Positions 1,674 through 63,546 of a DNA stretch of 64,000 bases are shown here, piece after piece. The position numbers were made by a program, and so were the translations under genes. The notes beneath the pieces are model-generated. The model had not been told where the DNA came from. It ran no database searches and worked only from the letters and a program-made list of their open reading frames with translations. The DNA comes from Sneathiella glossodoripedis JCM 23214. GTDB lineage: Bacteria; Pseudomonadota; Alphaproteobacteria; Sneathiellales; Sneathiellaceae. The DNA is taken from positions 620,001-684,000 of the forward strand of contig NZ_BAMS01000001.1 of NCBI RefSeq assembly GCF_000616095.1, in the 5' to 3' direction. Each line of letters opens with the position of its first letter. The first letter of the stretch is position 1.

Positions 1674-4547
1674 ATGAAGGAAGCCGACGTCACGGGCGAT
1701 CCTAATCAAAAGCATCGGGTATATCTTGTAGATGGCTCTGGCTATATATTCAGAGCTTATTTTGCAATGATCCGCGGGCGCGGACCGATTACAAGATCTG
1801 ATGGGACGCCGACCGGCGCGGTTCTTGGCTTTTCGAATATGTTATTCAAGCTTATTCAGGACACACAACGAGATGAGCGTGTAAGCCATCTGGCGGTGAT
1901 CTTTGATACAAGCCGAAAAACGTTTCGAACTGATATTTATCCAGAATATAAAGCTAACCGTGACGCTCCACCGGAGGATTTGATCCCTCAATTCCCCCTG
2001 GTTCGTGAGGCTACCCGAGCCTTCAATGTACCTGCCATCGAAAAGGAAGGGTTTGAAGCCGACGACATCATTGCCACTTATGCAAGGCAAGCGCGTGAGC
2101 AGGATATGGAATGCGTGATTGTCTCTTCTGACAAAGACCTGATGCAGCTTGTTGGCGGTCCGGTGACGATGCTTGATCCAATGAAGAACACTTCTATTGG
2201 TGTAGATCAGGTTTATGAGAAGTTTGGTGTTGGCCCGGAGAAGGTTGTTGATATTCAATCGCTCGCGGGTGATAGCGTAGACAATGTACCGGGTGTTCCC
2301 GGAATTGGCATCAAGACCGCCGCGCTCTTGATAAATGAGTATGGTGATTTGGACACGCTCTTGGAGCGGGCTGGCGAAATCAAGCAGAAAGGTCGGCGGG
2401 AAAAATTACTGGAAAACGCGGATAAGGCTCGTATTAGCCGAGAGTTGGTGCGTCTTAAAGACGATGTTGAACTGGACATAAATGTTCGGGATCTGAACAT
2501 CCAGGAACCTGTAGCAGAAGACCTGAAAAGCTTCTTGAAGGAAAATGAGTTTCGCCAACTGAGTAGCCGCGTTTCGGCCTTTTACGGCAGTGAGTTCACT
2601 GTAAGTATTCCACAAGCAAAAAAGGAAACGGGTTTAACTCAAGACTCCACCGCTCCAGCGCTTGATCTTTCCAACGTGGAAAAAAAATATACCACAGTCA
2701 CTCAGCAAGAACAGTTGATGAGTTGGATTGAAAGGGCTCAAAAATCTGGAGTTCTGGCCATTGATACTGAAACCACTAGCTTGAGTCCAATGGCGGCCGA
2801 GCTTGTCGGAATATCACTTTCTGTAGAACCCGGTGAAGCTTGCTATATTCCTGTTGGACATAAGCGGCCCCAGACCCAGGGTGGTTTCGATTTCGGTGCG
2901 GATATGCAAGAAAATACGGAGCCTGGTCTGGATCAATTACCCAAGTACGAGGTGATCAAGGTTCTGAAGCCTTTGCTGGAAGATCCCGGTGTTTTGAAAG
3001 TTGGTCAGAATATCAAATATGACATGACAATTCTCGCCAAGGAGGGGATTGGTGTTACACCAGTAGATGATACGATGCTGCTCTCCTACTGTCTCGATGC
3101 CGGCTTGCATGGACACGGAATGGATGAGCTTTCGAAGTTACATTTTGATATTGCCCCGATACCTTATAAGGAGATCACCGGTACTGGAAAGTCACAGATT
3201 AGCTTTGCTGAAGTGCCGATTGATAAAGCAACAGAGTACGCAGCTGAAGATGCAGATATTACGTTGCGCTTGCATAAAGTATTGAAACCAAACCTGTTTC
3301 GCAAACAGGTTGCACGTCTGTATGAAACCATCGAACGTCCGTTAATTCCAGTTATTTCGGAAATGGAACAAAATGGCATTAAAGTCGATTCTGCGTTCCT
3401 GAGTCAGCTTTCAGAAGACTTCGGTGGACGTATGGAAAGCCTTGTTTCTGAAATACATGAGCTGGCCGGTGAAGAATTTAATGTGGGCTCACCCAAGCAA
3501 TTGGGGGAAATCCTGTTTGATAAGATGGGTCTTGAAGGCGGTAAAAAAGGTAAGACGGGTGCCTATACCACGGATGTTACCGTACTTGAAACATTGGCTG
3601 CAGAAGGTGTTGAACTTGCACAGCGCGTCCTTGACTGGCGCCAATTGTCTAAGCTCAAAAGTACCTATACTGATGCCCTTCAGGCACAGATTAACCCAAA
3701 GACCAAAAGGGTTCACACGTCCTTTAGTTTAGCGGCTGCAGCCACAGGTCGTCTCGCATCCAGTGAGCCAAATCTTCAGAATATTCCAATTCGTACTGAG
3801 GAAGGCCGAAAGCTCAGGAAAGCTTTTATAGCCGAAGAGGGATACAAACTGATTAGCGCGGATTATTCTCAAATCGAACTGAGGATTTTGGCGCATATTG
3901 CGAATATTGAAAGCCTTAAGCAGGCTTTTGCGGATGGTTTGGATATCCATGCGAAGACGGCATCACAGGTGTTTGGAGTTCCACTCGACGGGATGGATCC
4001 AATGATGCGTAGATCCGCGAAAGCGATCAACTTTGGGATTATTTACGGCATCAGTGCATTTGGCCTCGCCAGACAACTTGGCGTGTTACGAACCGAAGCT
4101 CAAGGATATATCGAAGCATATTTTGAGCAATATCCGGGTATCCGCCGATATATGGATGAAACAAAGCAATTCTGCCGTGACAATGGCTATGTTGAAACCT
4201 TATTCGGCCGGAAAGTACATTTACCCGGTATTTCAGACAAAAACGGTGCTCGTCGCAGTTTTTCTGAACGGGCAGCAATCAATGCACCCATACAGGGGTC
4301 AGCGGCGGATATTATCAAACGAGCAATGATCCGCATCCCGGGTGCGCTTGAACGCGAGAAGCTGGACGCGAAAATGTTGCTTCAGGTACATGACGAGTTG
4401 ATTTTTGAAGTTCATGAAGACCAAACCGCAGAAGCCGTGAAAGTCATTCAGGAAATTATGCAAAATGCAGCAATGCCTGCTATTGAGATGTCAGTTCCGC
4501 TAACGGTTGATGCGGGTATTGGGGATAACTGGGGCGAAGCACACTAG
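1674..4547 (+). CDS. polA: DNA polymerase I
   Basis: The gene encodes a 957-residue three-domain repair and Okazaki-fragment polymerase. An N-terminal 5'-3' exonuclease (about 15-300) is followed by a proofreading domain and a family A polymerase domain. The proofreading residues are intact: AIDTETTS (about 362) for Exo I, GQNIKYDM for Exo II and YAAEDAD for Exo III, so the enzyme should be proofreading-competent. Polymerase motifs are DYSQIELR (about 730), RRSAKAINFG (about 779) and VHDE (about 905). AAAGGGG lies a few bases before the ATG at 1674. The length is normal for alphaproteobacterial PolA. No frame problem is seen here, in contrast to several genes later in the window. Confidence 0.98.
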   Translation: MKEADVTGDPNQKHRVYLVDGSGYIFRAYFAMIRGRGPITRSDGTPTGAVLGFSNMLFKLIQDTQRDERVSHLAVIFDTSRKTFRTDIYPEYKANRDAPPEDLIPQFPLVREATRAFNVPAIEKEGFEADDIIATYARQAREQDMECVIVSSDKDLMQLVGGPVTMLDPMKNTSIGVDQVYEKFGVGPEKVVDIQSLAGDSVDNVPGVPGIGIKTAALLINEYGDLDTLLERAGEIKQKGRREKLLENADKARISRELVRLKDDVELDINVRDLNIQEPVAEDLKSFLKENEFRQLSSRVSAFYGSEFTVSIPQAKKETGLTQDSTAPALDLSNVEKKYTTVTQQEQLMSWIERAQKSGVLAIDTETTSLSPMAAELVGISLSVEPGEACYIPVGHKRPQTQGGFDFGADMQENTEPGLDQLPKYEVIKVLKPLLEDPGVLKVGQNIKYDMTILAKEGIGVTPVDDTMLLSYCLDAGLHGHGMDELSKLHFDIAPIPYKEITGTGKSQISFAEVPIDKATEYAAEDADITLRLHKVLKPNLFRKQVARLYETIERPLIPVISEMEQNGIKVDSAFLSQLSEDFGGRMESLVSEIHELAGEEFNVGSPKQLGEILFDKMGLEGGKKGKTGAYTTDVTVLETLAAEGVELAQRVLDWRQLSKLKSTYTDALQAQINPKTKRVHTSFSLAAAATGRLASSEPNLQNIPIRTEEGRKLRKAFIAEEGYKLISADYSQIELRILAHIANIESLKQAFADGLDIHAKTASQVFGVPLDGMDPMMRRSAKAINFGIIYGISAFGLARQLGVLRTEAQGYIEAYFEQYPGIRRYMDETKQFCRDNGYVETLFGRKVHLPGISDKNGARRSFSERAAINAPIQGSAADIIKRAMIRIPGALEREKLDAKMLLQVHDELIFEVHEDQTAEAVKVIQEIMQNAAMPAIEMSVPLTVDAGIGDNWGEAH

Positions 4548-4579
4548 ACCCGATTGTCCGGTTAGGTAGGGAGTTCAGA

Positions 4580-5524
4580 ATGCTTACGGTACTCAGTGTC
4601 ATTGGGCCGGTTTTTGCCCTTGTGGCGCTGGGCTATTTGAGCGTTCGGATGCGCCTATACCCTGAAGGGGGAGTCGCTGGCTTAATCAGTTTTGTGAATA
4701 ATTTTGCAACTCCGTGTCTGCTGTTTCAAGCCATGCTGAAAGTGGATTTTGGGTCCACATTTAATCCGAAATATTTGCTTTCTTTTTATATTGGCGCTTT
4801 TTGCTGTTTTGGAATCTCATTCTTAATCGCCAGAAAAATTTTCAAGCGACGAGCAGGGGAATCTGTCGCAATTGGTTTTTCTGCCTATTTTACAAATACG
4901 GTTCTATTGGGTCTGCCAATTATCCAGAGGGCTTACGGAAATGAAGCCCTGCCCTTGTTATTTGCAATTGTGGGATTTCATGCACCGGTCCTGATGAGCT
5001 TTGGCATGGTGGTTATGGAATTTGCTCGTCGTGATGGGGAACCTTTGGCAAAAGCGATTGGTCAATCGTTGATGAGGGTAATTAAAAACCCGTTATTGAT
5101 TGGAATAAGTTTGGGAATTGCCGCTAATCTGCTGGATATATCAATTCCTGAAATTCTGGATGATGCGACCCAGATGATGGCAACAGCTGTATTACCGGCC
5201 GCGCTGTTTGGTCTCGGCGGCGCGCTGGTTCAGTATCGATTGCGCCAAAGCTGGGGTCAGGCTCTGATTTCCAGTGTTTTGAAGTTGGTGGTTCATCCGA
5301 TGATAGCGCTGGTATTTTCCTACTATGTATTTGATCTTGAATTTGAACTGGTACGGGTTGCTGTGCTGACAGCAGCCATGCCATCAGGGTTAAATGTTTA
5401 CATTTTTGCGACCTTTTACAATCGTTCTACAGATATTGCCGCAAACACGGTCCTGCAAAGTACAGTGCTTGGTGTACTGAGTATTTCTGCCTGGTTGTTG
5501 ATATTACAGTATTTGCAGGGGTGA
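4580..5524 (+). CDS. AEC family transporter (auxin efflux carrier-like permease)
   Basis: A 314-residue integral membrane protein with about ten hydrophobic segments in two repeats. It opens with LSVIGPVFALVALGYLSVRM, which is typical of the AEC family (PF03547). Conserved features include VNNFATPCLLFQAML near residue 45 and AVLTAAMPSGLNVYIFA near residue 265, the two discontinuous helix regions that line the carrier's substrate path. Bacterial relatives export or take up organic acids such as malate and malonate; the substrate here cannot be assigned. TAGGTAGGGAG precedes the ATG. The gene lies 32 bases after polA on the same strand and may be co-transcribed with it. Confidence 0.88.
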   Translation: MLTVLSVIGPVFALVALGYLSVRMRLYPEGGVAGLISFVNNFATPCLLFQAMLKVDFGSTFNPKYLLSFYIGAFCCFGISFLIARKIFKRRAGESVAIGFSAYFTNTVLLGLPIIQRAYGNEALPLLFAIVGFHAPVLMSFGMVVMEFARRDGEPLAKAIGQSLMRVIKNPLLIGISLGIAANLLDISIPEILDDATQMMATAVLPAALFGLGGALVQYRLRQSWGQALISSVLKLVVHPMIALVFSYYVFDLEFELVRVAVLTAAMPSGLNVYIFATFYNRSTDIAANTVLQSTVLGVLSISAWLLILQYLQG

Positions 5525-5746
5525 TTCGGTTGGTCAGCTCAAATGACAAATCATGTTATGGTTAACAAGCACCTACATTCTATCATCCATATTGAGTAGA
5601 AAACGTAAAATTATCTAAAATTTTATATAAATATCCGCGTTCATGTTTGACCCCTTTGTGTAAACATGAGAGAAAATCAAATATCACGTAGAGTTTTTGG
5701 CTTTTTTGGGCATTAAATTGCTCAATGGCAGAAGGGTAAAAATCAG
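5525..5746 (+). promoter_or_regulatory. AT-rich leader of the VPLPA-CTERM gene with 8-bp dyad
   Basis: A 222-bp intergenic region, strongly AT-rich around 5600-5640. It contains a perfect inverted repeat, TCATGTTT at 5641-5648 and AAACATGA at 5662-5669, separated by 13 bases, about 80 bp upstream of the start codon. This could be a binding site for a dimeric regulator. AGAAGGG (5730-5736) is the likely ribosome-binding site. No clear promoter hexamers were assigned. Confidence 0.4.
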
Positions 5747-6352
5747 ATGAATACATTGATTAAACATTTTTTGGCTGTCATGGCCCTGACTGTTGTGTTT
5801 GCGAGTCCTGCTCGTGCGGCCACAGTATCCATTATCACTGATGATCCCATTGCAGCTCTTCCCGTGTTAACTGCTTCTGCCACCAGCGGAACTGTTTACC
5901 AGAACGTAACTGGTTCAGTGGGCGGTCTACGTCGTTCCCCTTGGGATACGGTTTCCGGACTTGAAAGCAGTGCCTATACATCTGTCTCCGCTGGTTCTTG
6001 GGCCAGTTATGTATTTCAGACAGCTATGAATACCCTGACCTTTATGTGGGGTTCAGTGGATTTGTACAACTCCATCGAATTTTACAATGATGGCGTTCTT
6101 CTGAACGAGTCTATTGTGGGACAGGATGCCATTAATGCCGGCGCAGTTCGGGGTTCGGATTTTGTGATTGCAACGATCTTGACCAATGGCATGTTTGATG
6201 AAATTCGCTTCCTGTCTGGCAGAAATGCGTTTGAGTATGCGAACGTGGAAGTCTCTGCAGTACCACTGCCTGCCGCATTGCCTTTGTACGGCGCAGGAAT
6301 GGCGTTACTTGGCCTCTTAGGCTGGCGAAAACGCCGCGCTTCTATAGCGTAA
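5747..6352 (+). CDS. Secreted protein with VPLPA-CTERM exosortase sorting signal
   Basis: A 201-residue exported protein. The first about 24 residues form a signal peptide (lysine, hydrophobic core LAVMALTVVFA, then SPARAA). The middle is a beta-rich, Ser/Thr/Gly-rich domain of unknown function. The C-terminus has the tripartite VPLPA-CTERM signal: VPLPAALPLYGAG (about 171-183), a hydrophobic segment and the basic tail GWRKRRASIA. Such signals are recognised by exosortase-type transpeptidases, which cut the tail and attach or release the protein at the envelope. These systems are usually found with exopolysaccharide production. No exosortase is in the window, so it must be encoded elsewhere. 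A terminator follows. Confidence 0.85.
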   Translation: MNTLIKHFLAVMALTVVFASPARAATVSIITDDPIAALPVLTASATSGTVYQNVTGSVGGLRRSPWDTVSGLESSAYTSVSAGSWASYVFQTAMNTLTFMWGSVDLYNSIEFYNDGVLLNESIVGQDAINAGAVRGSDFVIATILTNGMFDEIRFLSGRNAFEYANVEVSAVPLPAALPLYGAGMALLGLLGWRKRRASIA

Positions 6353-52401: not shown

Positions 52402-53913
52402 TCAGAGTTCTTTGCGCAATTCAGTTTTCAGAATTTTTCCATAGTTGTTTTTGGGAAGTTCATCTTTGAAAACATATTCCTTGGGGCGCTTGAAGCGTGC
52501 CATCTTCTGCAGGCAAAACTCATCCAGATCTTCCGCTGTTGCGGTGGCATCTGGTTTGAAGCTGATAAAGGCAACCACTTCTTCTCCCCATTCTTCGTGA
52601 GCCCGTCCCACCACAGAAACTTCATCAATTGCTGGGTGAGTTAATAGAACTTCTTCAATTTCCCTTGGGTAGATGTTGGTCCCACCTGAAATGATCAGGT
52701 CTTTTGACCTATCTTTAAGGGTGATAAAACCATCTTCATCCCGACTACCCATATCACCTGTATAGAGCCAGCCGTTACGGATCGTTTCACGTGTAGCTTT
52801 GGGGTTTTTCCAATAACCAAGCATGACAACGTCGCCGCGCACAGTGATTTCACCAACTTCCCCGTCGCTGACTTCGTGACCATTTTTATCGACAATGCGC
52901 ACTTCGACGTCCGTTCGCTCCGCTCCGACGGATGCGAGGCGTTCTGAGCGTTTCGGATGAGAAGTATTATGCGCCAATTCCCACTGACTGAGTGCGGTTA
53001 TGGTCATCGGTGCTTCACCTTGCCCATAAATCTGGCAGAATTTTGGCCCGATTGCATCAAGGGCTTTGCGAATTTCTGCTTCGTACATTGGACCGCCGCC
53101 ATACACAATCAGCTTTAAGTTTTGAAGGTTTGCTGATTCTAGCGCGGGTGAGTTGATCAAACGATGTATCATTGTGGGGGCAAAGAAAAAGCAGGACCCG
53201 GGATAATGTTGTATAAGATCGAATGTTTCTGCAGGTTCGAAGCCACCGCTTAAAGGTGTGACCTGTATGCCGCCTTTCGCAACTAGAGGAAGTCCGTATA
53301 GACCGGAGCCGTGGGTTTGAGGGGCAGAATGGATGACCGCATCACCGGGATTAATAGATGCAACATCAGAAAAATAACTTGTGACGGCACATAAAAGATT
53401 TCGATGGCTTAGCATTGCCCCTTTTGGTTTGCCTGTGGTGCCGGATGTGTAAAATAACCAGGCTAGATCATCCGGTGCACGTGGAACCATTTCCATCGGA
53501 TCATGTGAAAAAAGCGAGCCATATTCCGGATCCGAAATATTTATGACTATCAACTTCTGTTCAAGCGTTTGTAACTGCTTTGCATGCTTGTCAGTTGCGA
53601 TACACACGTGGCTATCTGAGTTTTCCAAAATATATTGAAACTCACTAATGTGCAGTTTCGCATTCACCGGCACAGCTACGAGGCCGGCGTGCCAAACGGC
53701 AAAGAGCGATATCCAGTATTCGGGGTGGTTGCTCATGATGAGAGCAACTCTATCTCCTTCGTTAAGGTGATAGTGCGTGCGAAGGGCCCTTGCCAAGGAA
53801 GATACTTTTGCCTGAAATTCTTCGTATGTCGCCGTGATGTTGGTTCCATGGGCTAGTGCTGGAAAATCCTTGAAAGTTAGCGCGCTGCGTCTTAGCAAAT
53901 TGGCAATATTCAT
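52402..53913 (-). CDS. AMP-binding enzyme, acyl-CoA synthetase type
   Basis: A 503-residue ANL-superfamily ligase. The ATP/AMP motif is LFYTSGTTGKPKGAML (about 153-168). Others are QIYGQGEAPMTIT, WLYTGDMGSRDEDGF (about 385-399), IYPREIEEVLLTHPAIDEV and the C-terminal lysine in NNYGKILKTEL. It activates a carboxylic acid as its CoA thioester; chain length is not clear. It is last in the operon ABC-cNMP-AmpG-ligase (16 bases after the AmpG-type gene). Confidence 0.9.
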   Translation of the reverse strand: MNIANLLRRSALTFKDFPALAHGTNITATYEEFQAKVSSLARALRTHYHLNEGDRVALIMSNHPEYWISLFAVWHAGLVAVPVNAKLHISEFQYILENSDSHVCIATDKHAKQLQTLEQKLIVINISDPEYGSLFSHDPMEMVPRAPDDLAWLFYTSGTTGKPKGAMLSHRNLLCAVTSYFSDVASINPGDAVIHSAPQTHGSGLYGLPLVAKGGIQVTPLSGGFEPAETFDLIQHYPGSCFFFAPTMIHRLINSPALESANLQNLKLIVYGGGPMYEAEIRKALDAIGPKFCQIYGQGEAPMTITALSQWELAHNTSHPKRSERLASVGAERTDVEVRIVDKNGHEVSDGEVGEITVRGDVVMLGYWKNPKATRETIRNGWLYTGDMGSRDEDGFITLKDRSKDLIISGGTNIYPREIEEVLLTHPAIDEVSVVGRAHEEWGEEVVAFISFKPDATATAEDLDEFCLQKMARFKRPKEYVFKDELPKNNYGKILKTELRKEL

Positions 53914-53929: not shown

Positions 53930-55249
53930 TTATAAGGCTTCTTTTTTATCGATTGTACGTGTCCGTTGCCCTGGTCTGGTGAGTAACCACAATAGTATCA
54001 AGCCGGGAACCGCGGCAATTGTGGTTATCAAAAAGAATTGAACCCAACCCATCTGTTCTGCAAGCCATCCGCCCGGGGATGAGAACCAGATACGTGCTGT
54101 TGCCATAAAAGATGACAGCAAAGCATATTGTGTTGCAGTGAAAGAGATATTGCACAGGCTGGATAGATAGGCGACGAATGCTGCAGTGCCCATACCACCA
54201 GCCAGATTTTCGATCCCCACAGTGAGTGCCAATACAGTAATATCATTTCCGGCCAGTGCCTGAATTGCGAACATCAGGTTTGACCCCAGTTGAAGGAAGC
54301 CACAGATCCACAGCGTTTTATACAGTCCGCTGGCAGCCATAAGCCATCCACCAAGGGCAAGGCCGATAAAAGTTGCTGCTGTTCCATAGACCTTACTTAC
54401 ATTTGCGATGTCAATTTTTGTAAAACCCAAATCATAAAAGAATGGTGTGCTCATCACACCAGCGAGACTGTCCCCGAATTTATACAGTGCGACAAACAGG
54501 AGAATGGGCAGCCATCCGGGGCGTTGTAGAAATTCAGCAAATGGATCGATCACAGCTTCCTTAAGCCAGTTTAGATATGCATTTAATCGAGTAGTTTTCT
54601 GTTGAACGACGCTCTGTTGTGGCTCTATGTGAATGTTTGGCTCGCCTGCAATTAGGATTGTAAGCGTTCCGATTAGCATTAAGGCTGCCATAATGTTGAA
54701 AGTCATTTGCCAATCGAGTGCGGTTGCCAGATATAACGCTCCAGCGCCAGAAACCAACATTCCAATTCTATAGCCAAATACGATTGCTGCGGCTCCGGCA
54801 GCCATATTTTTCTCATCGGATATCTCAACCCGATAAGCATCAATAACGATATCCTGACTCGCCGAGGAAAAGGCGATCAAAAAAGCAAAAATGGCAGTGA
54901 GGCCTATGTTCGTGGCAGGGTCAGTACTTCCAAGCCCGATGATTGAAAGCATCAGACAAATCTGGGTCAGGATCATCCATCCGCGTCTTCGTCCGAACAT
55001 TCGTCCCAGCAAAGGGATTGGCAGTTTGTCAATTAAGGGTGCCCATAGAAATTTGAGGGCATAAGGGGTTGCGACATTGGCAAAAAGTCCAATCGATGTG
55101 AGGGTTAAACCCTCCTCTCGAAGCCAAAGGGCAAGTGTTGTCCCGGTTAGTGCAAGCGGTAGACCTGAAGAGAAACCCAGAAACAGGATCGCAATGACGC
55201 GGGGGTCTTTATAAATGGATATGGCTGTAAACCAGCGCTTTAGAAGCAC
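53930..55249 (-). CDS. ampG: AmpG-like MFS permease (muropeptide uptake type)
   Basis: A 439-residue major facilitator protein with 12 or more hydrophobic segments. LGFSSGLPLALTGTTLALWL (about 24-43) and YLSSLCNISFTATQYALLSS are AmpG hallmarks, and FSSASQDIVIDAYRVE is another conserved segment. AmpG imports anhydromuropeptides for cell-wall recycling. The start is a GTG at 55249 with a weak ribosome-binding site, 31 bases after the cNMP-binding gene. Substrate assignment is by family resemblance. Confidence 0.85.
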   Translation of the reverse strand: MLLKRWFTAISIYKDPRVIAILFLGFSSGLPLALTGTTLALWLREEGLTLTSIGLFANVATPYALKFLWAPLIDKLPIPLLGRMFGRRRGWMILTQICLMLSIIGLGSTDPATNIGLTAIFAFLIAFSSASQDIVIDAYRVEISDEKNMAAGAAAIVFGYRIGMLVSGAGALYLATALDWQMTFNIMAALMLIGTLTILIAGEPNIHIEPQQSVVQQKTTRLNAYLNWLKEAVIDPFAEFLQRPGWLPILLFVALYKFGDSLAGVMSTPFFYDLGFTKIDIANVSKVYGTAATFIGLALGGWLMAASGLYKTLWICGFLQLGSNLMFAIQALAGNDITVLALTVGIENLAGGMGTAAFVAYLSSLCNISFTATQYALLSSFMATARIWFSSPGGWLAEQMGWVQFFLITTIAAVPGLILLWLLTRPGQRTRTIDKKEAL

Positions 55250-55280: not shown

Positions 55281-55751
55281 TTATTCTTCGCCGGTTTCCT
55301 TACGAAGGGACTCTTTGGCTTTCTGGAGTTCCTCAGTCGTTCTGACCAGCCGCTCTGCAAGTACTCTCATCATCTCAACAGACATTTCCGGAAACTCGGA
55401 GATGGTTCGAAGAAAAAGATCTTTTGTGATGCGCAGTGTGGTTAATTCGGATGCAGCTTTAATCGTTGCGGTGCGCGGAATATTGATCAGAATGGCGATT
55501 TCCCCAACAACGTCATTTTTTTGCATTGTTGCAACGGTGAGCGGGCCGGTTGGCGAATCCACAACAACATCTGCTTTTCCGTTGATAATAACATAGGCAG
55601 CATCCCCCATTTCTCCTTGCTTGCACAGAATATCACCGGCCTGAAATGTCAGACGCTCTGAGGTAAAAGCAAGCAGCTTGATTTTGGATGGATCTACTTT
55701 GGCAAACAGGGGAATTTGCCTGAGTGTTTCAACCTCTTCTCTTAAGCTCAC
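55281..55751 (-). CDS. Stand-alone cyclic nucleotide-binding domain protein
   Basis: A 156-residue protein made of one CNBD (about 15-130) and a charged, helical C-terminal tail. The phosphate-binding cassette is present: VGEIAILINIPRTATIKA (about 84-101), with the Glu and Arg that hold the cyclic phosphate. No HTH or other effector domain is present, so it should work through protein contact. It is encoded between the degenerate ABC protein (24 bases upstream) and the AmpG-type permease. GAGGAG 8 bases from the GTG start supports the start. Regulation of the ABC protein by cAMP or cGMP is inferred. Confidence 0.88.
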   Translation of the reverse strand: MSLREEVETLRQIPLFAKVDPSKIKLLAFTSERLTFQAGDILCKQGEMGDAAYVIINGKADVVVDSPTGPLTVATMQKNDVVGEIAILINIPRTATIKAASELTTLRITKDLFLRTISEFPEMSVEMMRVLAERLVRTTEELQKAKESLRKETGEE

Positions 55752-55775: not shown

Positions 55776-58427
55776 TTAATTGATCAGCATCTTGAACTGT
55801 TCGCTGCGCTTTTGCAGATCTTCGAACGTCCCGGTGTCCGCGATTACACCGCCATTAATCAGTAAAATCTGGTCAAATAGATAGGATAGTTCAGGTTTTT
55901 CGAGCGACCAGATAACGCCTCTTCCCTCAAATTCATTGAGAATATTCTCAAGAATGCGTTGCTGTGACCGTGCATCCAGGGAGGCCGTTGCCTGATTAAT
56001 CACCAAAAAGTCAGGTTTTTTGAGGATTGATCTGGCAATGCATAACTTCTGGCGCTGGTTTTCACTAAGACGTGAGCCACCAGAGCCAACGGGGAAGTTG
56101 AGGCCTACTTTGATAATAGCGCGTTTTAGCTCCATTTCAGAGACGACATCTGAAAGAAGTGCACCGATTTTTTCACTTGCTTGCGCATAGCCATAGGCAA
56201 TTTTACCAAAAAGGATGTTGTCCTGAATGTTTGCCGCGGCGTTATATTCGTCGGGGTTAAAGAAGGCGATGCTGCCTTTGAGCTCGTCAGGCAAGTGATC
56301 TACAAACTGTTTGCGCGCTTTGACAATTTTTTCCTGTATTTCCTCTGTGATTACACCCAGACGATGCCTTGAAGGAATGACTTTGAATGGCAAAGACATG
56401 AACCGCAGTTTGTCTTCTTCTCTCATTTGATCGAGTTTTTCGGGGTTTACGCGCGTTAAAATGGCTTGATATTCGGGCAGGTCATCGGAGCTGATAAAAC
56501 CATATTGTTGGAAAAATTCATGATCTGGTGGCAAATCGGCAAATAGCTCAACCATCAGCGAGGCCACTTGATAGCCCATTTTGAGAAACTCTGTCTTCAG
56601 ATTAGCTTCATCGATTACCTTCTGAACATATGTATTTTCAGCCAGACGTTCCAGATCAAAGCTTTCATCCACCGGGGTTCCGAATAGTAAGTTTTCACCC
56701 AGTGTGGCGTTTGTATTGTATTTATCCGGCTCAAATGCCTCCACAAGGTTCTTCAGCCCGCCCCCATTTTCGATTTTTTCAAAAAAGCGCTTACGAGCCG
56801 AGAGTATCAATGCCGCTGTTTCAGGGTCTTCCTCCGGATCTAGTGTACTGCGCAGGCCAAATTGATAAACATCATCACCCAGTTCTACCATTTGCAGAAC
56901 ATCAATGGCGCGTCCATCCAGTTCTTCAAGGCTGTTCACACCCGCGCTTTCATAATCAATCCAGTCGTGGCGCACGTTGAAGGGGCTGTTATCAGTTAAT
57001 TCAATCTCAGACTGATCACGCAGCAGGAAAGTCTTCTCATCTTCGTCCTCTATGTCTAATTCGCGTAACGGGCGATGCTTTAATCCGAAGAACAGGTTAT
57101 CCCCAATTGTCGAATTAAAGACATAGCCAGATTGCCCAATATAAGAAATCCGCCGACCGGTAACTGATTGGGGGGCATCAAGCAGATTGACCTCACCCGC
57201 GGCCAGGTTTCCTTTATCGGGGTCTATTAGCCGCGCGAGAATTCGTGTAAGCGCGTCTCGACCTGAACCGGCATTTCCTACGATAGCCACTTTGCTGTCG
57301 AGAGGGACTTTAATATTCAGGCCTTCTAGTTGAGCAGACCCTGTATCATCCGAAAGTATCAGGTTGCTACCCACCAACTCACCAGACAGTTTGGGAAACG
57401 GATCGGGTTCATCCTGTTGATAGGAATCATCACGAAGGCCCGCAGGTTCAAATTGCTCAACGACCTGCTCATATTTGATACGCGCGTCTTCGCGGCGCTG
57501 ATAATAGGCGAGCAGCTCTTTCCAGGGCGCCGCCATTTCCTTGTGGGCGTTAATCGCAGCGACGAGTGTACCAATTTCAAGGTTTCCTGCGATCACCATG
57601 GTTCCGCCAATGGCATAAAAGAAGAAGGGGCCCAACTGCTGAATAAAGTTATTGAGAAACTTGATCACAAATTTCAGCAGATAAATACGGTACCTTACAA
57701 AATAAATACGGCCCAGTTGGTTGGTAAAGTCGGCCCGCATCAAATTTGAGGCATCATGGACATGAATTTCCTGAATGCCCGCAACAGTCTCCCCAATTTT
57801 ATCAGAAAGGATGCGGACCCTTTGAACCCGTTCCTTGCCGAGCAGGTTTACCTTTCGCTGCATTTTCGGAATGAAATAGGCCTGAAGCGGATATAAGGCA
57901 ATTGCGGCCAGTGCCATATAAACATTCTGCACAAGCAGGAAGCCCATAATGACAAGCAGGTATCCGCCCTGAAATGCAGGGAGTACAAACGCTTCTCCAA
58001 TAAACCCGCCGAGTGGTTCTACTTCCGCCGTGATCATGGGGATAATTTCACCAGAGCTTTTTTTCCGAAATGTTGGAAGGGGGAAGCGCATGATGCGGCT
58101 GTAGAGCTCATAGCGCAGCCTGCGCAGCATACGCTCTCCCGTGATACCCTGATAAACGTTGATTGCGTATTTGAAGCCCTGATTAATCAGCACCAGAATA
58201 AGAAAAGCCGCTACCGAAACATATAGAAACTCCTCCTGATCGATTGAGATATCCATGAATTCGACAGGAAAAACGATATCTTTGGCCTGTATGGCCTGAT
58301 CAATTATGATTTTTGGAAGTTCCAGATAATAATACAAAAATGGAAAAGACGCGCAGGAAAGCAACAGAAGGATGATCTGCTGTTTTTTACTGTGACGCAG
58401 TATGTACTTGTAAATACTATGTTCCAT
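55776..58427 (-). CDS. ABC exporter-like protein with expanded, degenerate nucleotide-binding domain
   Basis: An 883-residue fusion. The N-terminal transmembrane region (about 1-320) looks like a type IV ABC exporter half (ERMLRRLRYELYSRIMRFPL). The nucleotide-binding part (about 350-883) is about 530 residues, over twice the usual size. Its motifs are altered: GNAGSGRD for Walker A (384-391, Lys to Arg and Ser/Thr to Asp), LSENQ for LSGGQ (787-791), INQATASLD at Walker B (810-818, with Asn-Gln where Asp-Glu is expected) and no H-loop His in WSLEKPE. The post-Q-loop motif occurs three times: STIGDNLFFG (439-448), ATLGENLLFG (574-583) and ANIQDNILFG (732-741). It is probably a poor ATPase. AGGG precedes the ATG at 58427. 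Confidence 0.85.
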   Translation of the reverse strand: MEHSIYKYILRHSKKQQIILLLLSCASFPFLYYYLELPKIIIDQAIQAKDIVFPVEFMDISIDQEEFLYVSVAAFLILVLINQGFKYAINVYQGITGERMLRRLRYELYSRIMRFPLPTFRKKSSGEIIPMITAEVEPLGGFIGEAFVLPAFQGGYLLVIMGFLLVQNVYMALAAIALYPLQAYFIPKMQRKVNLLGKERVQRVRILSDKIGETVAGIQEIHVHDASNLMRADFTNQLGRIYFVRYRIYLLKFVIKFLNNFIQQLGPFFFYAIGGTMVIAGNLEIGTLVAAINAHKEMAAPWKELLAYYQRREDARIKYEQVVEQFEPAGLRDDSYQQDEPDPFPKLSGELVGSNLILSDDTGSAQLEGLNIKVPLDSKVAIVGNAGSGRDALTRILARLIDPDKGNLAAGEVNLLDAPQSVTGRRISYIGQSGYVFNSTIGDNLFFGLKHRPLRELDIEDEDEKTFLLRDQSEIELTDNSPFNVRHDWIDYESAGVNSLEELDGRAIDVLQMVELGDDVYQFGLRSTLDPEEDPETAALILSARKRFFEKIENGGGLKNLVEAFEPDKYNTNATLGENLLFGTPVDESFDLERLAENTYVQKVIDEANLKTEFLKMGYQVASLMVELFADLPPDHEFFQQYGFISSDDLPEYQAILTRVNPEKLDQMREEDKLRFMSLPFKVIPSRHRLGVITEEIQEKIVKARKQFVDHLPDELKGSIAFFNPDEYNAAANIQDNILFGKIAYGYAQASEKIGALLSDVVSEMELKRAIIKVGLNFPVGSGGSRLSENQRQKLCIARSILKKPDFLVINQATASLDARSQQRILENILNEFEGRGVIWSLEKPELSYLFDQILLINGGVIADTGTFEDLQKRSEQFKMLIN

Positions 58428-58648
58428 ACAGCCCTGTTTGTTTTGTCCATTAAGCGTTTTGTCCTGCATGCTCGCAGGTTAGGATTAGTTTTTCATATTT
58501 TTTATAAATTCCGCAAGGAGCAAATTGACAATTACATGTCTTAGTCCATAGGAATGTGATTATCGTGACGAAGAATTGGATTGAACGCTTGAATTTGCGA
58601 CATACAGTCCTTACTACAATTATTTCAGTTCTTTCCGATTGTTGCCGC
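58428..58648. promoter_or_regulatory. Divergent promoter region between the ABC operon and the glycan operon
   Basis: About 220 bases separate the start codons of the two operons, depending on the true start of the first glycosyltransferase. The region is AT-rich around 58490-58550. I could not assign hexamers with confidence, and no terminator or repeat of note was found. Confidence 0.35.
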
Positions 58649-59902
58649 ATGCTTTATCAACCAGAGTCAAAAAGTGTTATCACCGTCGTCCTCAAAGGCT
58701 ATCCTCGTCTTTCTGAAACGTTTATTGCTCAGGAACTGAGAGCGCTTGAAAAACTGGGACATCGCCTGCATTTGATTTCCTTGCGCCATCCAACGGATAA
58801 GAAGCGGCATCCCATCCATTCTGAAATTGAAGCCCCGGTTACATATTTACCGGAATACTTGTACCAAGAGCCGTTACGTGTATTGAAAAGTTGGTGGAAG
58901 GTTCGAAAACTACCAACCTATCGTCAGGTTTTTTCTCAATGGCTAAAAGATTTGAAACGGGATTTCTCATCCAACAGAGTGCGGCGGTTCGGTCAGGCGC
59001 TTGTACTGGCAGCAGAGCTTCCTAAAAATAGCTCTCATATTTACGCTCATTTTCTACATACGCCTGCGAGTGTAGCCAGATATGCTGCCAAGTTTTGTGA
59101 TCTCCCCTGGAGTTGTTCTGCACATGCAAAAGATATTTATACCTCCCAAGAGTGGGAGATAGGCGAAAAACTGGACGATTTGAAGTGGCTGGTGACATGC
59201 ACTTCATTCAACGTATCCCATCTTCGAAAGCTGGCCACGGCTCCGGATAAGATTGAATTGCTGTATCATGGACTGGATTTATCTCGTTTTCCGAAGGTGA
59301 ACGGCAAACGTCATATTTCAGACGGCCGATCTGCTGATGCAAAGGTCAGAATTTTGTCAGTAGGGAGAATGGTTGCCAAAAAAGGGTATGATGATTTGAT
59401 TAACGCGCTTGCGTTACTTCCTGACAATCTTCACTGGGAGTTTGAGCATATTGGCGGTGGTTCAATTTTATCAGAGTTGCAAAAACAGGCAGAAAAACTG
59501 GGAATAGCGGGTCAAATTAATTGGCGTGGCGCGCAATCACAGCAGACAGTTTTACAGGCGATGCAGGAGGCAGATATTTTTGTTCTGGCCAGTAGAATTG
59601 CTGAGGACGGAGATCGGGACGGCCTGCCCAATGTGCTGATGGAGGCACAAAGCCAAAAGGCTGCGATCCTCTCAACGCGCGTATCAGCAATCCCCGAACT
59701 GATTGAACATGAGAAAACGGGGCTGCTTGTTGAGCAGCGAGATCCAGAAGGTATGGCGCAAGCGTTGGCGACCTTGATCACAACGCCAACGCTTCGTGAG
59801 AAATTGACTGAGGCGGGGGATAGCTTTTTACGCGATAACTTTGATGCCAATAAATGGATTGGCAAACTGTCCAGTAAATTTGCAAAAGAAAGTCAGCGAT
59901 GA
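58649..59902 (+). CDS. Glycosyltransferase family 4 protein
   Basis: A GT-B glycosyltransferase of about 417 residues. The N-terminal domain opens with VITVVLKGYPRLSETFIAQE, typical of colanic-acid or exopolysaccharide GT4 enzymes. The C-terminal domain has ILSVGRMVAKKGYDDLINAL and the E-x7-E type nucleotide-sugar motif near DGLPNVLMEAQSQKAAILST. Start is uncertain: the ATG at 58649 is closest to the conserved N-terminus, whereas a GTG at 58556 would add 31 residues. It is the first gene of a coupled operon (stop overlaps next start). Confidence 0.88.
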   Translation: MLYQPESKSVITVVLKGYPRLSETFIAQELRALEKLGHRLHLISLRHPTDKKRHPIHSEIEAPVTYLPEYLYQEPLRVLKSWWKVRKLPTYRQVFSQWLKDLKRDFSSNRVRRFGQALVLAAELPKNSSHIYAHFLHTPASVARYAAKFCDLPWSCSAHAKDIYTSQEWEIGEKLDDLKWLVTCTSFNVSHLRKLATAPDKIELLYHGLDLSRFPKVNGKRHISDGRSADAKVRILSVGRMVAKKGYDDLINALALLPDNLHWEFEHIGGGSILSELQKQAEKLGIAGQINWRGAQSQQTVLQAMQEADIFVLASRIAEDGDRDGLPNVLMEAQSQKAAILSTRVSAIPELIEHEKTGLLVEQRDPEGMAQALATLITTPTLREKLTEAGDSFLRDNFDANKWIGKLSSKFAKESQR

Positions 59903-61026
59903 AGGTCGCGTTTTACGCCCCTATGAAGTCTCCCAATCATCCGACTCCGTCAGGTGACAGGCGCATGGCGCGTTTGTTAATGGAAGCGTTGACCCAGGCG
60001 GGTTATTCAGTGGATATCGCGAGTGAATTTAGAAGTTTCGAAGGGACAGGCGATGCCGCAGTACAGGAAGCCATAAGGCGAGAGGGAGAACAAAGAGCGC
60101 AGGAGTTGATAAATACCTACGCCGGTATGGTCAGAGATGAGCGTCCTGACGTTTGGTTCACCTATCACTTATATCATAAAGCGCCTGATTGGATTGGTCC
60201 TGCGGTGTGTAGGGCACTTGGAATACCTTATTTTGTTGCTGAAGCCAGCCATGCTCCCAAGCAAAAGTCGGGAAATTGGGCGACGGGTTTTACAGCAGCT
60301 GAAGCTGCTATAGGTATGGCATCACGCGTGTTTCATTTAACGACACTGGATGCCGAATGTCTTCGTTTGATCGTGAAGTCGCCGGAAAAGCTTGTGCACC
60401 TCCCTCCCTTTATCGAGCAAGTGAACGAACCCGCGGATCCAGAGCTGGGCCAGAAGTTGATCTTGGAGCACGGGGGTCGGGAAAATCGTGTTACTCTCTT
60501 ATGTGTCGCTATGATGCGGGCTGGAGATAAATTCCAGTCTTATCAACAGCTTGCTGACGTTGTGGGGCGCCTCACAGAAGAGAGCTGGCAACTCGTTATC
60601 GTAGGTGACGGAGATTATTGTCAAAAAGTTCGCGCATTATTTTCCCGATTTGAAGAGCAAATTGTGTATCTGGGCCTTCAAGATGGTAAAACTTTGCAAT
60701 CGGTTTATGCTGCTGCAGACTTGTATGTTTGGCCCGCATGTGGTGAGGCCTTTGGTATGGCTTTTTTGGAAGCGCAGCGTCAAGGGACACCAGTTGTTTC
60801 TGCTATGGTTCGCGGTGTTCCGGATGTCGTAGTGAATGGGCAGACGGGAATACTGGTACCCCCGAATGACACACAAGAGATGGCTCGGCAGGTATCCACG
60901 TTGATGGTGGATGAGAATAGGCGTCGGCAATACGGCCGGTCCGCTCAGGATTTTGTTTTTCGTGAAAGAAGCATGAAGATGGCGAGTGATATTTTGGGCA
61001 AAGCGATTAGAGAGGTTGTTGGATGA
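59899..61026 (+). CDS. Glycosyltransferase family 4 protein
   Basis: A 375-residue GT-B enzyme. It opens with KVAFYAPMKSPNHPTPSGDRR. The C-terminal domain has LLCVAMMRAGDKFQSYQQLA, LVIVGDGDYCQKVRAL and the donor-binding WPACGEAFGMAFLEAQRQGT (about 278-297). The acceptor and sugar donor are unknown. The ATG overlaps the previous stop codon (ATGA), so translation is coupled. It is distinct from its neighbour, so the operon encodes at least two different sugar-transfer steps. Confidence 0.88.
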   Translation: MKVAFYAPMKSPNHPTPSGDRRMARLLMEALTQAGYSVDIASEFRSFEGTGDAAVQEAIRREGEQRAQELINTYAGMVRDERPDVWFTYHLYHKAPDWIGPAVCRALGIPYFVAEASHAPKQKSGNWATGFTAAEAAIGMASRVFHLTTLDAECLRLIVKSPEKLVHLPPFIEQVNEPADPELGQKLILEHGGRENRVTLLCVAMMRAGDKFQSYQQLADVVGRLTEESWQLVIVGDGDYCQKVRALFSRFEEQIVYLGLQDGKTLQSVYAAADLYVWPACGEAFGMAFLEAQRQGTPVVSAMVRGVPDVVVNGQTGILVPPNDTQEMARQVSTLMVDENRRRQYGRSAQDFVFRERSMKMASDILGKAIREVVG

Positions 61027-61607
61027 TCCCGCTGTTGCTGATAAGGCACGGAAAAACTGAGTGGAATTTACAAAAGAAGCTTCAGGGCCGACAGGATATC
61101 AGTTTATGTGAAGTGGGCATTACTGAATTGAAGCAAATGTCGTTGCCAACGGAATTTAATCATTTTGAATGGTGTGTTAGTCCTTTGAAGCGGGCGCAAG
61201 AGACGGCGAAATTACTGGGCGCTGAAAATTTCGCGACAGACGACAGGCTGATCGAAATGGATTTTGGAGAGTGGGAAGGTTGCACGATTAAAGCCTTGAG
61301 AGAACGCTATGGCCAATCCATGCTGGATAATGAAGCTAAGGGAATATATATGACGCCGCCACAGGGGGAGAGCCCATATGACGTGCAGCAGCGTCTGCGT
61401 TCTTTTCTAAGAGGCTTAAGGAACCCAACTATTGCCGTGACGCACAAAGGAGTGATTAGAGCTATCAAATCACTCGCATATGATTGGGATATGAAAGATA
61501 AATTCCCGATGGAGTTTAAATGGAATGCAGCACATCTATTCGAAGTGACGAGTGAAGGCATTCCTGTAGGAAAGAAATTGAACATTAAGCTGGACGCTGC
61601 CAAATGA
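61023..61607 (+). CDS. Histidine phosphatase family protein
   Basis: A 194-residue protein with the phosphoglycerate-mutase-like RHG motif LLIRHGKTEWNLQKKLQGRQ (about 5-24), the second core Arg in SPLKRAQETAKLL, and the second His in IAVTHKGVIRAI (about 136-147). It should remove phosphate from a sugar phosphate or similar substrate. Its place among coupled glycosyltransferase genes points to a phosphorylated glycan precursor, which is inference only. The ATG overlaps the previous stop codon. Confidence 0.9.
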   Translation: MIPLLLIRHGKTEWNLQKKLQGRQDISLCEVGITELKQMSLPTEFNHFEWCVSPLKRAQETAKLLGAENFATDDRLIEMDFGEWEGCTIKALRERYGQSMLDNEAKGIYMTPPQGESPYDVQQRLRSFLRGLRNPTIAVTHKGVIRAIKSLAYDWDMKDKFPMEFKWNAAHLFEVTSEGIPVGKKLNIKLDAAK

Positions 61608-62758
61608 CTGAAAATACGCCTGTGAAAATTCTGTTTTATGTGCAGCATTTGCTTGGAATTGGACATTTGCGTAGAACGGCGACGCTTTCACGTGCGATGG
61701 TTGGGGCTGGTTTTGACGTAACTGTCGTTTCAGGCGGCCATAAAATCGACGTGGATTTAGGCGGCGCACGGCTTGTACAGTTGCCAGCCACGCGGGCTAC
61801 CGATTTGTTCTTTAAGCAACTTGTCGATGAAGATGGAAATCACATAGACGATACTTGGCGTCAAAAGAGGGCCAGCAGGTTGCTTGATTTATATCATGAG
61901 ATTAGGCCTGATATTCTGATTACTGAGCTGTTTCCATTTGGCCGAAGGCAAATGCGCTTTGAGTTGCTGCCTTTGCTGGATGCGGCCAAAGCTGCTGAAA
62001 ACCCTCCGCTTATCATATCCTCTGTTCGGGATATTCTCGTCGCACAAACCAAGCCCGGGCGAAATGATGAAATGCTGGATCTTGTGAAGCGGTATTTTGA
62101 CACGGTTCTGGTGCATGGTGATCCAGATCTGATCTCGCTGGATCAGACTTTTCCACACACAACAGCAATATCAAATCTTATTTTTTATACAGGATATGTT
62201 GTCGATAGATCCGGTCAAAAAGGGGGTGAAGAGGCCCCCGGCTATGACGAGGTTATTGTTTCAAGTGGCGGAGGTGCAGTAGGGACACAATTGTTGAAAA
62301 CAGCAATTGAAGCGAAACAGCTGAGCAAGCTGAATGATAAGGTCTGGCGTCTATTAGTGGGGGCCACTGTAGAGGAAGAGGTTTTTGAAGAGCTGAGGGC
62401 CTTGTCTGGCGATGGCGTCATCGTCGAACGCGCCCGAAAAGATTTTCCGACACTTCTCATGAATTGTGCGCTTTCGATCAGCCAGGGGGGATACAATACA
62501 GTCATGGAGATACTGTATGCGAAGTGTAAAGCCGTTATTGTCCCTTATGCAGGTGGCGTAGAGACTGAACAGACATTGCGTGCGCAGTTGCTTGCGGACA
62601 AGGGTGTTTTACAAATCGCCGATGAAGAAGGGCTGGATGCGGTGAAATTGGCTGCAAAAGTGGATCTGGCCTATGACGGACCACCTGCGCAAGCTGAAAT
62701 TAATGTAAATGGCGCGCAAAAGACCGTGGAGCTTCTTAAGAGCTGGGTGGCAAAGTAA
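61604..62758 (+). CDS. Glycosyltransferase, MurG/GT28-like
   Basis: A 384-residue GT-B enzyme. It opens with KILFYVQHLLGIGHLRRTAT (about 8-27), with the glycine-rich GIGHLRR loop of GT28-type enzymes, and has VVSGGHKIDVD nearby. The C-terminal domain has RARKDFPTLLMNCALSISQG and YNTVMEILYAKCKAVIVPY. The donor is unknown. The ATG overlaps the previous stop codon (ATGA), and its own TAA overlaps the next ATG. Similar proteins lie beside deacetylase-fold genes in related genomes. Confidence 0.87.
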   Translation: MTENTPVKILFYVQHLLGIGHLRRTATLSRAMVGAGFDVTVVSGGHKIDVDLGGARLVQLPATRATDLFFKQLVDEDGNHIDDTWRQKRASRLLDLYHEIRPDILITELFPFGRRQMRFELLPLLDAAKAAENPPLIISSVRDILVAQTKPGRNDEMLDLVKRYFDTVLVHGDPDLISLDQTFPHTTAISNLIFYTGYVVDRSGQKGGEEAPGYDEVIVSSGGGAVGTQLLKTAIEAKQLSKLNDKVWRLLVGATVEEEVFEELRALSGDGVIVERARKDFPTLLMNCALSISQGGYNTVMEILYAKCKAVIVPYAGGVETEQTLRAQLLADKGVLQIADEEGLDAVKLAAKVDLAYDGPPAQAEINVNGAQKTVELLKSWVAK

Positions 62759-63546
62759 TGTTTGGGTCTTGGGACGCGTTATCTGCGGAGCTTGATATTT
62801 GGTCTAAAGGCCGGAAGAAGGCTACGTTTTGGTGGCGGGATGATGACCTGAATGAACCTTCTTTGGCGTTGGAGCGTTTACTGTCGCTACGTCAGCGTTT
62901 GGATCTCCCGCTCACGCTTGCAACTATACCTGACAATGTAGACCCGGTTTTATCTGACTATATTGATGGTTGCGAACTGGTGCAGCACGGCGTGACACAT
63001 GTATCTCACGCAGAAAAAGGGGAAAAGAAATCTGAATTTCCCGCTTCCAGAGATTTAAATGAAGCTAAAGTGCAATTATTGGCAGGTAAAGCCAGACTGG
63101 AAGAGTTGTTTCCAAATGATTTTTTTGCGTTCTTCGTTCCACCTTGGAACAGAATTTCGGCTGAGACGCTAAATCTACTTCCGGGGTTAGGGTTTATTGG
63201 AGTATCCCGATTTAAATCACGGCAAAGCGCTTGCCCCTTTCCAGCGTTTGCTGAAGTTAATACGCATATCGACCCGGTTAACTGGCGCTTGGATCGAAGT
63301 GCCTATCCTGAACATGTAATTCTGTCCGATATTATTCAGGCCTTGAAAAACAGAAGGCTTGGAAAAGCTGATATTTTGGAGCCCATAGGCATCCTCACTC
63401 ATCATTTGATGTTTGACGAGCCTTTGTGGGAAATAACCTATAAGCTTCTTACTTTTTTGGAAAACCACGAAGCTGTAAGATTTCTGACATTGAGAGGCGC
63501 TATTTCCCTCATCGATGAAATGCCGGATTTACCAGAGTATAACTAG
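62758..63546 (+). CDS. Polysaccharide deacetylase-like protein
   Basis: A 262-residue protein with a NodB-like fold. FWWRDDDLNEPSLALERLLS (about 24-43) carries acidic residues where deacetylases have their Asp pair, and QHGVTHVSHAEKGEKKSEF (about 79-97) holds the likely metal-binding His residues. FFVPPWNRISAETLNLLPGL corresponds to the later family motif. It has no signal peptide, so the target is probably a cytoplasmic glycan precursor made by the preceding enzymes. It is coupled to the upstream glycosyltransferase by a 1-base overlap. Confidence 0.8.
   Translation: MFGSWDALSAELDIWSKGRKKATFWWRDDDLNEPSLALERLLSLRQRLDLPLTLATIPDNVDPVLSDYIDGCELVQHGVTHVSHAEKGEKKSEFPASRDLNEAKVQLLAGKARLEELFPNDFFAFFVPPWNRISAETLNLLPGLGFIGVSRFKSRQSACPFPAFAEVNTHIDPVNWRLDRSAYPEHVILSDIIQALKNRRLGKADILEPIGILTHHLMFDEPLWEITYKLLTFLENHEAVRFLTLRGAISLIDEMPDLPEYN

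Follow-up and report, generated by a model that had tools for sequence, protein, structure and literature searches.

Why would an ATP-binding cassette (ABC) exporter maintain a nucleotide-binding domain (NBD) of about 540 residues that has lost most of its canonical catalytic residues? This question is raised by P0001, an ABC-exporter-like protein of 883 residues, encoded on the minus strand at 55776..58427 of a 64,000-nucleotide stretch (here referred to as the window) of the alphaproteobacterium Sneathiella glossodoripedis JCM 23214 (contig NZ_BAMS01000001.1, positions 620,001 to 684,000). In the following, we describe an internal triplication in this NBD, the drift of its catalytic positions, and a cyclic-nucleotide-binding protein that accompanies or is fused to nearly all of its relatives. 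Our preferred reading, to which we assign a probability of about 0.6, is that P0001 represents a cyclic-nucleotide-regulated transporter of the exporter fold, whose NBD was triplicated internally and turned into a regulatory module, and whose cargo would be of the glycan type.

Translation of the gene yields 883 residues and a stop codon. An alternative ATG lies upstream in the open frame (58469); homologues nonetheless align from the first methionine of the 883-residue form. Pfam assigns an exporter-type transmembrane domain (TMD; ABC_membrane, PF00664, 78.8 bits against a cut-off of 28, E 7.3e-22), in agreement with the fold matches, and an ABC-type NBD (ABC_tran, PF00005, 49.6 bits against a cut-off of 25, E 7.9e-13), the latter matched in two pieces. 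The best NCBIfam model, MsbA (TIGR02203), is also matched in two pieces and scores 161.4 bits, below its equivalog cut-off of 602. The NBD comprises residues 345–883.

A preceding sequence-only reading of this DNA had pointed to three copies of the motif TI-x-[DE]-N-[LI]-x-FG within the NBD and proposed that part of the domain was duplicated. The translation bears out the motifs: they read STIGDNLFFG (439–448), ATLGENLLFG (574–583) and ANIQDNILFG (732–741). Each lies in one of three consecutive units, all on the minus strand. Unit 1 (residues 427–555; 56763..57149) contains the true Q-loop strand, the first motif copy and diverged helices, and ends with ARKRFF; unit 2 (556–716; 56280..56762) appears to be an extra copy of the helical subdomain, with the second motif copy and a pseudo-signature helix, ARKQF; and unit 3 (717–802; 56022..56279) holds the third motif copy together with the true helical subdomain and signature helix.

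We followed these units through two alignments, both of which include the window protein. One has 85 rows, namely those of 90 open reading frame (ORF) matches that reach 850 residues (the short L059, L060, L062, L063 and L066 were dropped). The other has 79 rows, the window protein and 78 of the 80 loci that were kept from a contig pattern scan with at least 591 matches, of which, among the matches listed, 573 encode a relative (the partial L111 and L113 were left out); 18 of the 79 rows recur among the 85. In the 85-row alignment, N444, N579 and N737, each in one of the motif copies, are invariant (85/85), as are R545, R705 and G741. In the 79-row alignment, N444 is found in 77 rows, and N579, N737, R545 and R705 in all 79. 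R545 and R705 come after the pseudo-signature helices, have an Ala before them (in 72 and 76 of the 85 rows, respectively), and correspond to R799 after the true signature (83/85).

Profiles of the three units (cut at 424–560, 558–718 and 716–815) were compared in HHalign, with 40 column shuffles for each pair. Units 2 and 3 align over 61 columns (E 7.6e-13), with a similarity that runs past the motif into the helices, and units 1 and 3 over 59 columns (E 8.3e-5). The alignment of units 1 and 2 covers 22 columns, equivalent to the motif (E 2.3e-6), and a second, weaker one pairs PETAALILSARKRFFEKI in unit 1 with EEIQEKIVKARKQFVDHL in unit 2 (E 5.6e-4). Against a profile of 32 canonical exporter segments, unit 1 matches in the Q-loop region (2.5e-9), unit 3 through the signature (3.6e-23) and unit 2 weakly (4.4e-4). 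None of the 40 shuffles reaches the real score in any of the six comparisons.

An AlphaFold model of the whole chain, computed from the 79-row alignment as a monomer without ligand, has a mean predicted local distance difference test score (pLDDT) of 85.7 and a predicted template modelling score (pTM) of 0.80, with a pLDDT of at least 85 in most NBD blocks. It repeats a similar order of elements three times, from a Q-loop strand via a motif helix and further helices to a signature-like helix: strand 427–430 and helices 441–449, 500–513, 517–525 and 535–554 in unit 1; strand 562–564, helix 576–581, strand 583–585 and helices 599–607, 611–629 and 695–710 in unit 2; and strand 720–722, helix 734–739, strand 741–743 and helices 750–764, 768–775 and 789–802 in unit 3. 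Once the insert is looped out of this model, 239 NBD residues match the complete ComA NBD (239 residues; root-mean-square deviation (r.m.s.d.) 1.8 Å, Z 29.3); the excess is thus accounted for by an insert of some 285 residues, and the NBD fold is normal apart from it. Unit 2 was also modelled alone (pLDDT 90.5, pTM 0.84) and aligned with 614 chains in VIA-align. The top six rows are ABC NBDs, from both halves of ABCB1, FtsE and TM287 (Z 5.0–4.1 over 68–77 residues, r.m.s.d. 2.7–3.7 Å), and the next row, a non-ABC chain, has a Z of 3.3. The aligned ranges in these six are 476–547 (7a65), 1121–1195 (8sb9), 474–548, 1120–1193, 96–164 and 413–490 (4q7k), which we take to be the stretch from the Q-loop to the signature helix.

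Because the unit profiles beat their shuffled controls and unit 2, folded on its own, resembles an ABC region, we consider it well supported, by alignment and model alike, that a single NBD contains three copies of the segment that starts at the Q-loop strand, spans the helical subdomain and ends with the signature helix. The proposed duplication thereby becomes a threefold and family-wide one, for which profiles and the fold of unit 2 provide the evidence; support is weakest for the second half of unit 1.

Judged by its relatives, P0001 is a member of a conserved family and not a local oddity. Matches at E ≤ 1e-60 were found in 97 of 289 sampled genomes of the class and in 22 of 25 genomes of Sneathiella's taxonomic family, the own genome included in each case; in the own genome, P0001 is the single match at this level, with the next best at 4e-13. 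The kept loci come from Sneathiella, Oceanibacterium, Tistrella, Thalassobaculum, Azospirillum, Nisaea, Geminicoccus and Ferrovibrio, from a Kordiimonadales strain and from many metagenome bins. Their record titles are mostly alphaproteobacterial; L153 and L176–L179 are titled Gammaproteobacteria and L144 Anaerolineae, according to the bin names as recorded. Among 398 genomes sampled from the phylum, 31 contain a match to unit 2, all of them the own genome or of the same class; the unmatched genomes shown (20 of 367) likewise belong to this class, and the sample may therefore lack other classes. One family gene lies inside an unusually long open frame of 1386 residues (L098:6483-10643).

The catalytic positions of P0001 deviate as the sequence-only reading had described, which the translation confirms. 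The degenerate Walker A motif, GNAGSGRD (384–391; 57255..57278, minus strand as for the following), has Arg at the Lys position and Asp at the Ser/Thr position; the degenerate Walker B motif reads FLVINQ (807–812; 55992..56009); the signature is LSENQ (787–791; 56055..56069), followed by R792 (81/85 rows); and the H-loop position is occupied by Glu843 (55899..55901). Of the six canonical residues, only Gln432 of the Q-loop is kept, and K390, S/T391, D811, E812 and H843 are absent. On this basis, P0001 is likely inactive as an ATPase. Across the family, K390 occurs in 40 of the 79 and 40 of the 85 rows, S/T391 in 10 and 3, Q432 in 21 and 28, D811 in 8 and 10, E812 in 53 and 37, and H843 in 36 and 19, respectively. 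The full set of six is found in none of the rows of either alignment, and Lys, Glu and His are kept together in 16/79 and 11/85. One member, L117:4722-7379, is nearly canonical (GAAGSGKS, Q, VNE, H) and has the insert as well; it lacks just the Walker B Asp, reads LSAAQ instead of LSGGQ, and may be the best candidate for remaining ATPase activity.

The family therefore seems degenerate to different degrees, with P0001 near the degenerate end, and as Lys is present in about half of the rows, the label 'ATPase-dead' fits P0001 better than the family as a whole. The suggestion that the protein is non-hydrolysing is thus supported in part, by the five missing residues of P0001 and by the lack of any row with the full set, and is weakened by the many rows that keep Lys, Glu or His. 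Likewise, the sequence-only reading had asked whether the substitutions and the three motif copies are conserved together, and had held that homologues with Lys and Glu would make the protein a local oddity. The answer is mixed: the three copies are conserved, with their Asn in 85/85 rows, and the substitutions are not uniform; many homologues keep Lys or Glu, and the repeat is nonetheless family-wide.

Constraint is distributed unevenly over the protein. The TMD (residues 1–326; 57450..58427, minus strand) is its most conserved part, with a mean top-residue share of 0.70, and the corresponding values are 0.67 for unit 3, 0.64 for unit 2, 0.56 for the NBD before the units and 0.53 for the NBD after them. 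The catalytic positions rank at percentiles 12–64 of NBD core conservation; unit 2, but not the second half of unit 1, thus appears more constrained than the catalytic machinery.

What might control such a protein is suggested by its neighbour. The next downstream gene (55281..55751, minus strand), which was missing from the list of the sequence-only reading, encodes a protein of 156 residues with a cyclic-nucleotide-binding domain, a proposed regulatory subunit and our best lead to a regulatory role. We surveyed the neighbourhood of 120 family loci (40 + 80; 116 distinct ones, given the duplicates L091/L152, L093/L167, L096/L171 and L099/L180), counting distinct ORFs and domain positions. The partner is present in 116 of the 120: 12 of these carry it as a C-terminal fusion to the exporter, 101 have it on the same strand no more than 400 bases downstream, and in 3 the distance is up to 1500 bases. 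For the 116 distinct loci, these figures are 12, 97 and 3, with 4 lacking it. The four loci without partner are L068, L104, L113 and L186; the sequence of L113 breaks off within the gene and that of L186 soon after it. Pfam confirms the fused cyclic-nucleotide domain in all four fused proteins scanned (L083, L086, L101 and L163); in L086, the ABC_tran model is not reached at E 0.01. The nine fused forms included in the tree described below form one clade with two unfused ones (Shimodaira–Hasegawa-like approximate likelihood ratio test (SH-aLRT) support 97). The pocket of the partner is retained, with an Arg in 117/117 and a Glu in 110/117 rows (window included), presumably the phosphate and ribose contacts; the exporter-linked domain (116 of 120 loci) would accordingly have an intact pocket. 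At 20 control loci, those of NBD-less paralogues (see below), with one overlapping pair and with flanks of mostly about 6 kb compared to 8 kb for most family loci, we found neither the cyclic-nucleotide protein (0/20) nor the glycosyltransferases discussed below (0/20). The linkage and fusion of this protein to the exporter are new here. One genome, G154, has three divergent family copies (L087, L088 and L089), all with the fused domain.

On the other side of P0001, a divergent operon (58556..63546, plus strand) encodes two glycosyltransferases of family 4 (GT4), a histidine phosphatase, a GT28-like protein and a DUF2334-like protein (below the Pfam cut-off). It is a frequent neighbour and the proposed source of the substrate: three distinct ORFs of the GT4a, GT4b and GT28 types (at least 100 bits) are found in 70 of the 120 loci (67 of the 116 distinct ones), mostly upstream and on the opposite strand. 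An all-against-all ORF clustering merged the glycosyltransferases and antisense frames, and these counts do not rest on it. A second exporter-like ORF (at least 200 bits against canonical exporters) is present in just one of the 120 loci (L088, at 4502–6331), so that the family gene does not usually have a canonical partner chain as its neighbour; a partner may still be encoded in another part of the genome.

Further candidates in the window were set aside. Relatives of the AmpG-family gene of the major facilitator superfamily (53930–55249, minus strand; above the NCBIfam cut-off) occur in just 7 of the 120 loci, and those of the acyl-CoA ligase gene (52402–53913, minus strand) in just 10; neither is counted as part of the system. 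A PADLOC match of P0001 to mad3 (E 3.3e-9, residues 689–858) covers the general signature region and is not taken to indicate defence.

The TMD also occurs alone. A search with its profile in 240 genomes of the class (E ≤ 1e-30) returned long frames of 876–1386 residues, 18 stand-alone membrane domains in frames of 292–425 residues (one with an internal stop), and three contig fragments or broken frames (G178:C170, G139:C115 and G210); no frame of 550–700 residues, which a relative with the same TMD and an ordinary NBD would have, was found in these genomes at this threshold. The stand-alone domains are located at L066:1441-2664, L187:7917-9194 and L223–L239 (e.g. L223:5977-7062); we studied 17 such loci and two found earlier, one of these twice, and the copies of L225 and L239 are incomplete or interrupted. 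In a quick tree with three long branches, from which L066 and L239 were left out, 18 NBD-less paralogues group with 41 family members and apart from 14 MsbA-like exporters, with a very long separating branch. The branch support for the family alone is 15, and the paralogues may be either nested within the family or sister to it. The intracellular-loop segments are mostly shortened in the paralogues, whereas the full-length proteins keep both coupling-loop regions. In P0001, these are, by analogy with exporters, the regions of intracellular loop 1 (approximately residues 113–137; 58017..58091, minus strand), shortened in most paralogues, and of loop 2 (approximately 213–243; 57699..57791, minus strand), shortened in the paralogues as well. 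It is possible that the NBD-less paralogues constitute a second SbmA-like lineage. Those of L187, L188 and L225 have a multicopper oxidase and CopB nearby (L225 by similarity only), which suggests a link to copper handling.

How, then, might the parts work together? The helical subdomain of an NBD contains the signature motif and provides the docking site for the membrane domain, which makes three copies in one NBD an unusual architecture. In our preferred reading, the segment from Q-loop strand to signature helix would have been tandemly triplicated; unit 1 would hold the true Q-loop and unit 3 the true signature, and unit 2 would be an extra copy. Since the catalytic residues have drifted and the TMD, coupling loops and unit 2 are conserved, the NBD would most likely be a mechanical and regulatory element rather than a normal ATPase, and given that the coupling-loop regions and the normal NBD fold are kept, it probably still touches the membrane domain. 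The partner with its conserved cyclic-nucleotide pocket would most likely dock on the enlarged NBD and switch the membrane domain, and the cargo would likely be a glycan or glycolipid from the divergent glycosyltransferase operon. The computed support covers the triplication, the absence of a full catalytic set and the linkage or fusion of the cyclic-nucleotide protein; we infer the lack of hydrolysis, the docking, the gating and the cargo.

A number of results speak against this reading. The profile of unit 2 finds no ABC match by sequence among PDB chains (best E 0.5) and no ABC family in Pfam, where the window member matches none at all and, up to E 1, 16 families match 1–3 of 78 members (best 2e-4, DUF6576). 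A Foldseek search with unit 2 alone gives nothing in the PDB at E ≤ 0.001, the best Z in VIA-align is just 5.0, and a Z of at least 2 is reached in 33 of the 614 chains; at such low absolute values, the structural matches support the repeat rather than prove it, and what we rely on is which chains rank highest and where they align, rather than the size of Z. Support is weak for the latter half of unit 1 (450–555), where conservation is also at its lowest (0.52), and strong constraint thus does not extend to every extra copy. Furthermore, the complete set of three glycosyltransferases is missing from 50 of the 120 loci, some of which are cut by contig ends. Lastly, the Lys in about half of the rows, the Glu in 37/85 to 53/79 and the nearly canonical L117 imply that some members may bind or hydrolyse ATP, and the well-conserved LS..Q of the signature is compatible with retained nucleotide binding. 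The missing Pfam match of the window's unit 2 and the low structural scores would also fit three motif copies that arose by coincidence in an unrelated helical insert. We regard such an origin as highly improbable, given that every profile pair beats all of its shuffles, the similarity of units 2 and 3 extends into the helices, each unit has an Arg behind its signature-like helix (in 85, 85 and 83 of 85 rows), and the structural matches of unit 2 land on the corresponding ABC region.

Two further explanations concern the source of energy, and we consider both unlikely. ATP might still be used, much as at the degenerate sites of heterodimeric exporters, in that its binding, perhaps with slow hydrolysis, between the Walker A motif and the signature of the partner chain drives export, while the extra units only tune it. 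Such use would agree with the largely kept G384 and G389, with Lys or Arg at position 390 (72/79 and 82/85), with Q791 (79/79 and 73/85) and the frequent Walker B Glu, and with L117 and the rows that combine Lys, Glu and His; it is disfavoured by the rarity of S/T391 and D811, the positions of the Mg ligands, by the near absence of second exporter-like ORFs, and by catalytic positions that are on average less conserved than unit 2. Degenerate sites have, however, been reported to hold ATP stably (PMC7756269, in excerpt). Alternatively, the membrane domain might be a secondary transporter or channel on an SbmA-like path, with the NBD as a leftover scaffold. The NBD-less paralogues, which group with the family against MsbA-like exporters, have coupling loops shortened as in the SbmA-like loss (PMC13316013, in excerpt). 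In the full-length proteins, however, both coupling-loop regions and the NBD fold are kept, so that the NBD is probably still mechanically connected; a proton-binding ladder was not identified, although no dedicated test was made, and the tree allows the stand-alone group to lie inside or beside the family. A bolder version of our preferred reading, possible but tentative, would make P0001 a cyclic-nucleotide-gated, ATP-independent transporter, in which the NBD, enlarged by the triplication, changed from engine to allosteric switch and a related branch dropped it altogether and let its coupling loops decay, as a second independent route besides SbmA.

Several known systems share individual features with this family. 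Homodimeric type IV exporters (MsbA and the ComA/PCAT NBDs) have the same exporter TMD and one NBD per chain, and the NBD core superposes on that of ComA; unlike them, the family has the insert with two extra copies of the helical subdomain, and no row with the full catalytic set. Degenerate-site exporters, among which we count, partly from general knowledge, TM287/288, TmrAB, TAP and CFTR, have likewise lost the Walker B Glu and other motif residues. These exporters, however, pair a degenerate with a canonical site, whereas another exporter ORF is rare at the family loci, which is why the family chain probably dimerises with itself. The SbmA-like transporters (SLiPTs, e.g. SbmA/BacA), whose exporter-type TMD works without ATP, are reported to have lost the NBD and the coupling helices and to derive from a YddA ancestor (PMC13316013, in excerpt), and the shortened loops of the NBD-less paralogues would be a parallel change. 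In contrast to them, the window protein keeps its NBD and coupling-loop regions, and no glutamate ladder was identified in it, though no dedicated test was made; the likeness to SbmA/YddA drawn here is one by description. Lastly, HetC of Nostoc has a cyclic-nucleotide-type domain that is required for function and binds guanosine tetraphosphate (ppGpp), but not cyclic AMP, in vitro, alongside a peptidase domain and an ATPase with a catalytic residue that is essential (PMC10986499, in excerpt). Its sensor domain is N-terminal, whereas that of the P0001 family is C-terminal or a separate protein; by analogy, HetC may nevertheless serve as a precedent for an exporter equipped with a sensor of this kind.

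Among the open-access full texts listed, judged by titles and the beginnings of abstracts, we found no description of an NBD with three helical subdomains, and no title or abstract beginning that names this family. If its members are indeed non-hydrolysing, they would provide a widespread and conserved system for asking which functions an ABC NBD has beyond hydrolysis, and for testing whether cyclic nucleotides gate the exporter fold directly. Together with them, the NBD-less paralogues and their shortened loops may represent a natural series from primary to secondary transporters.

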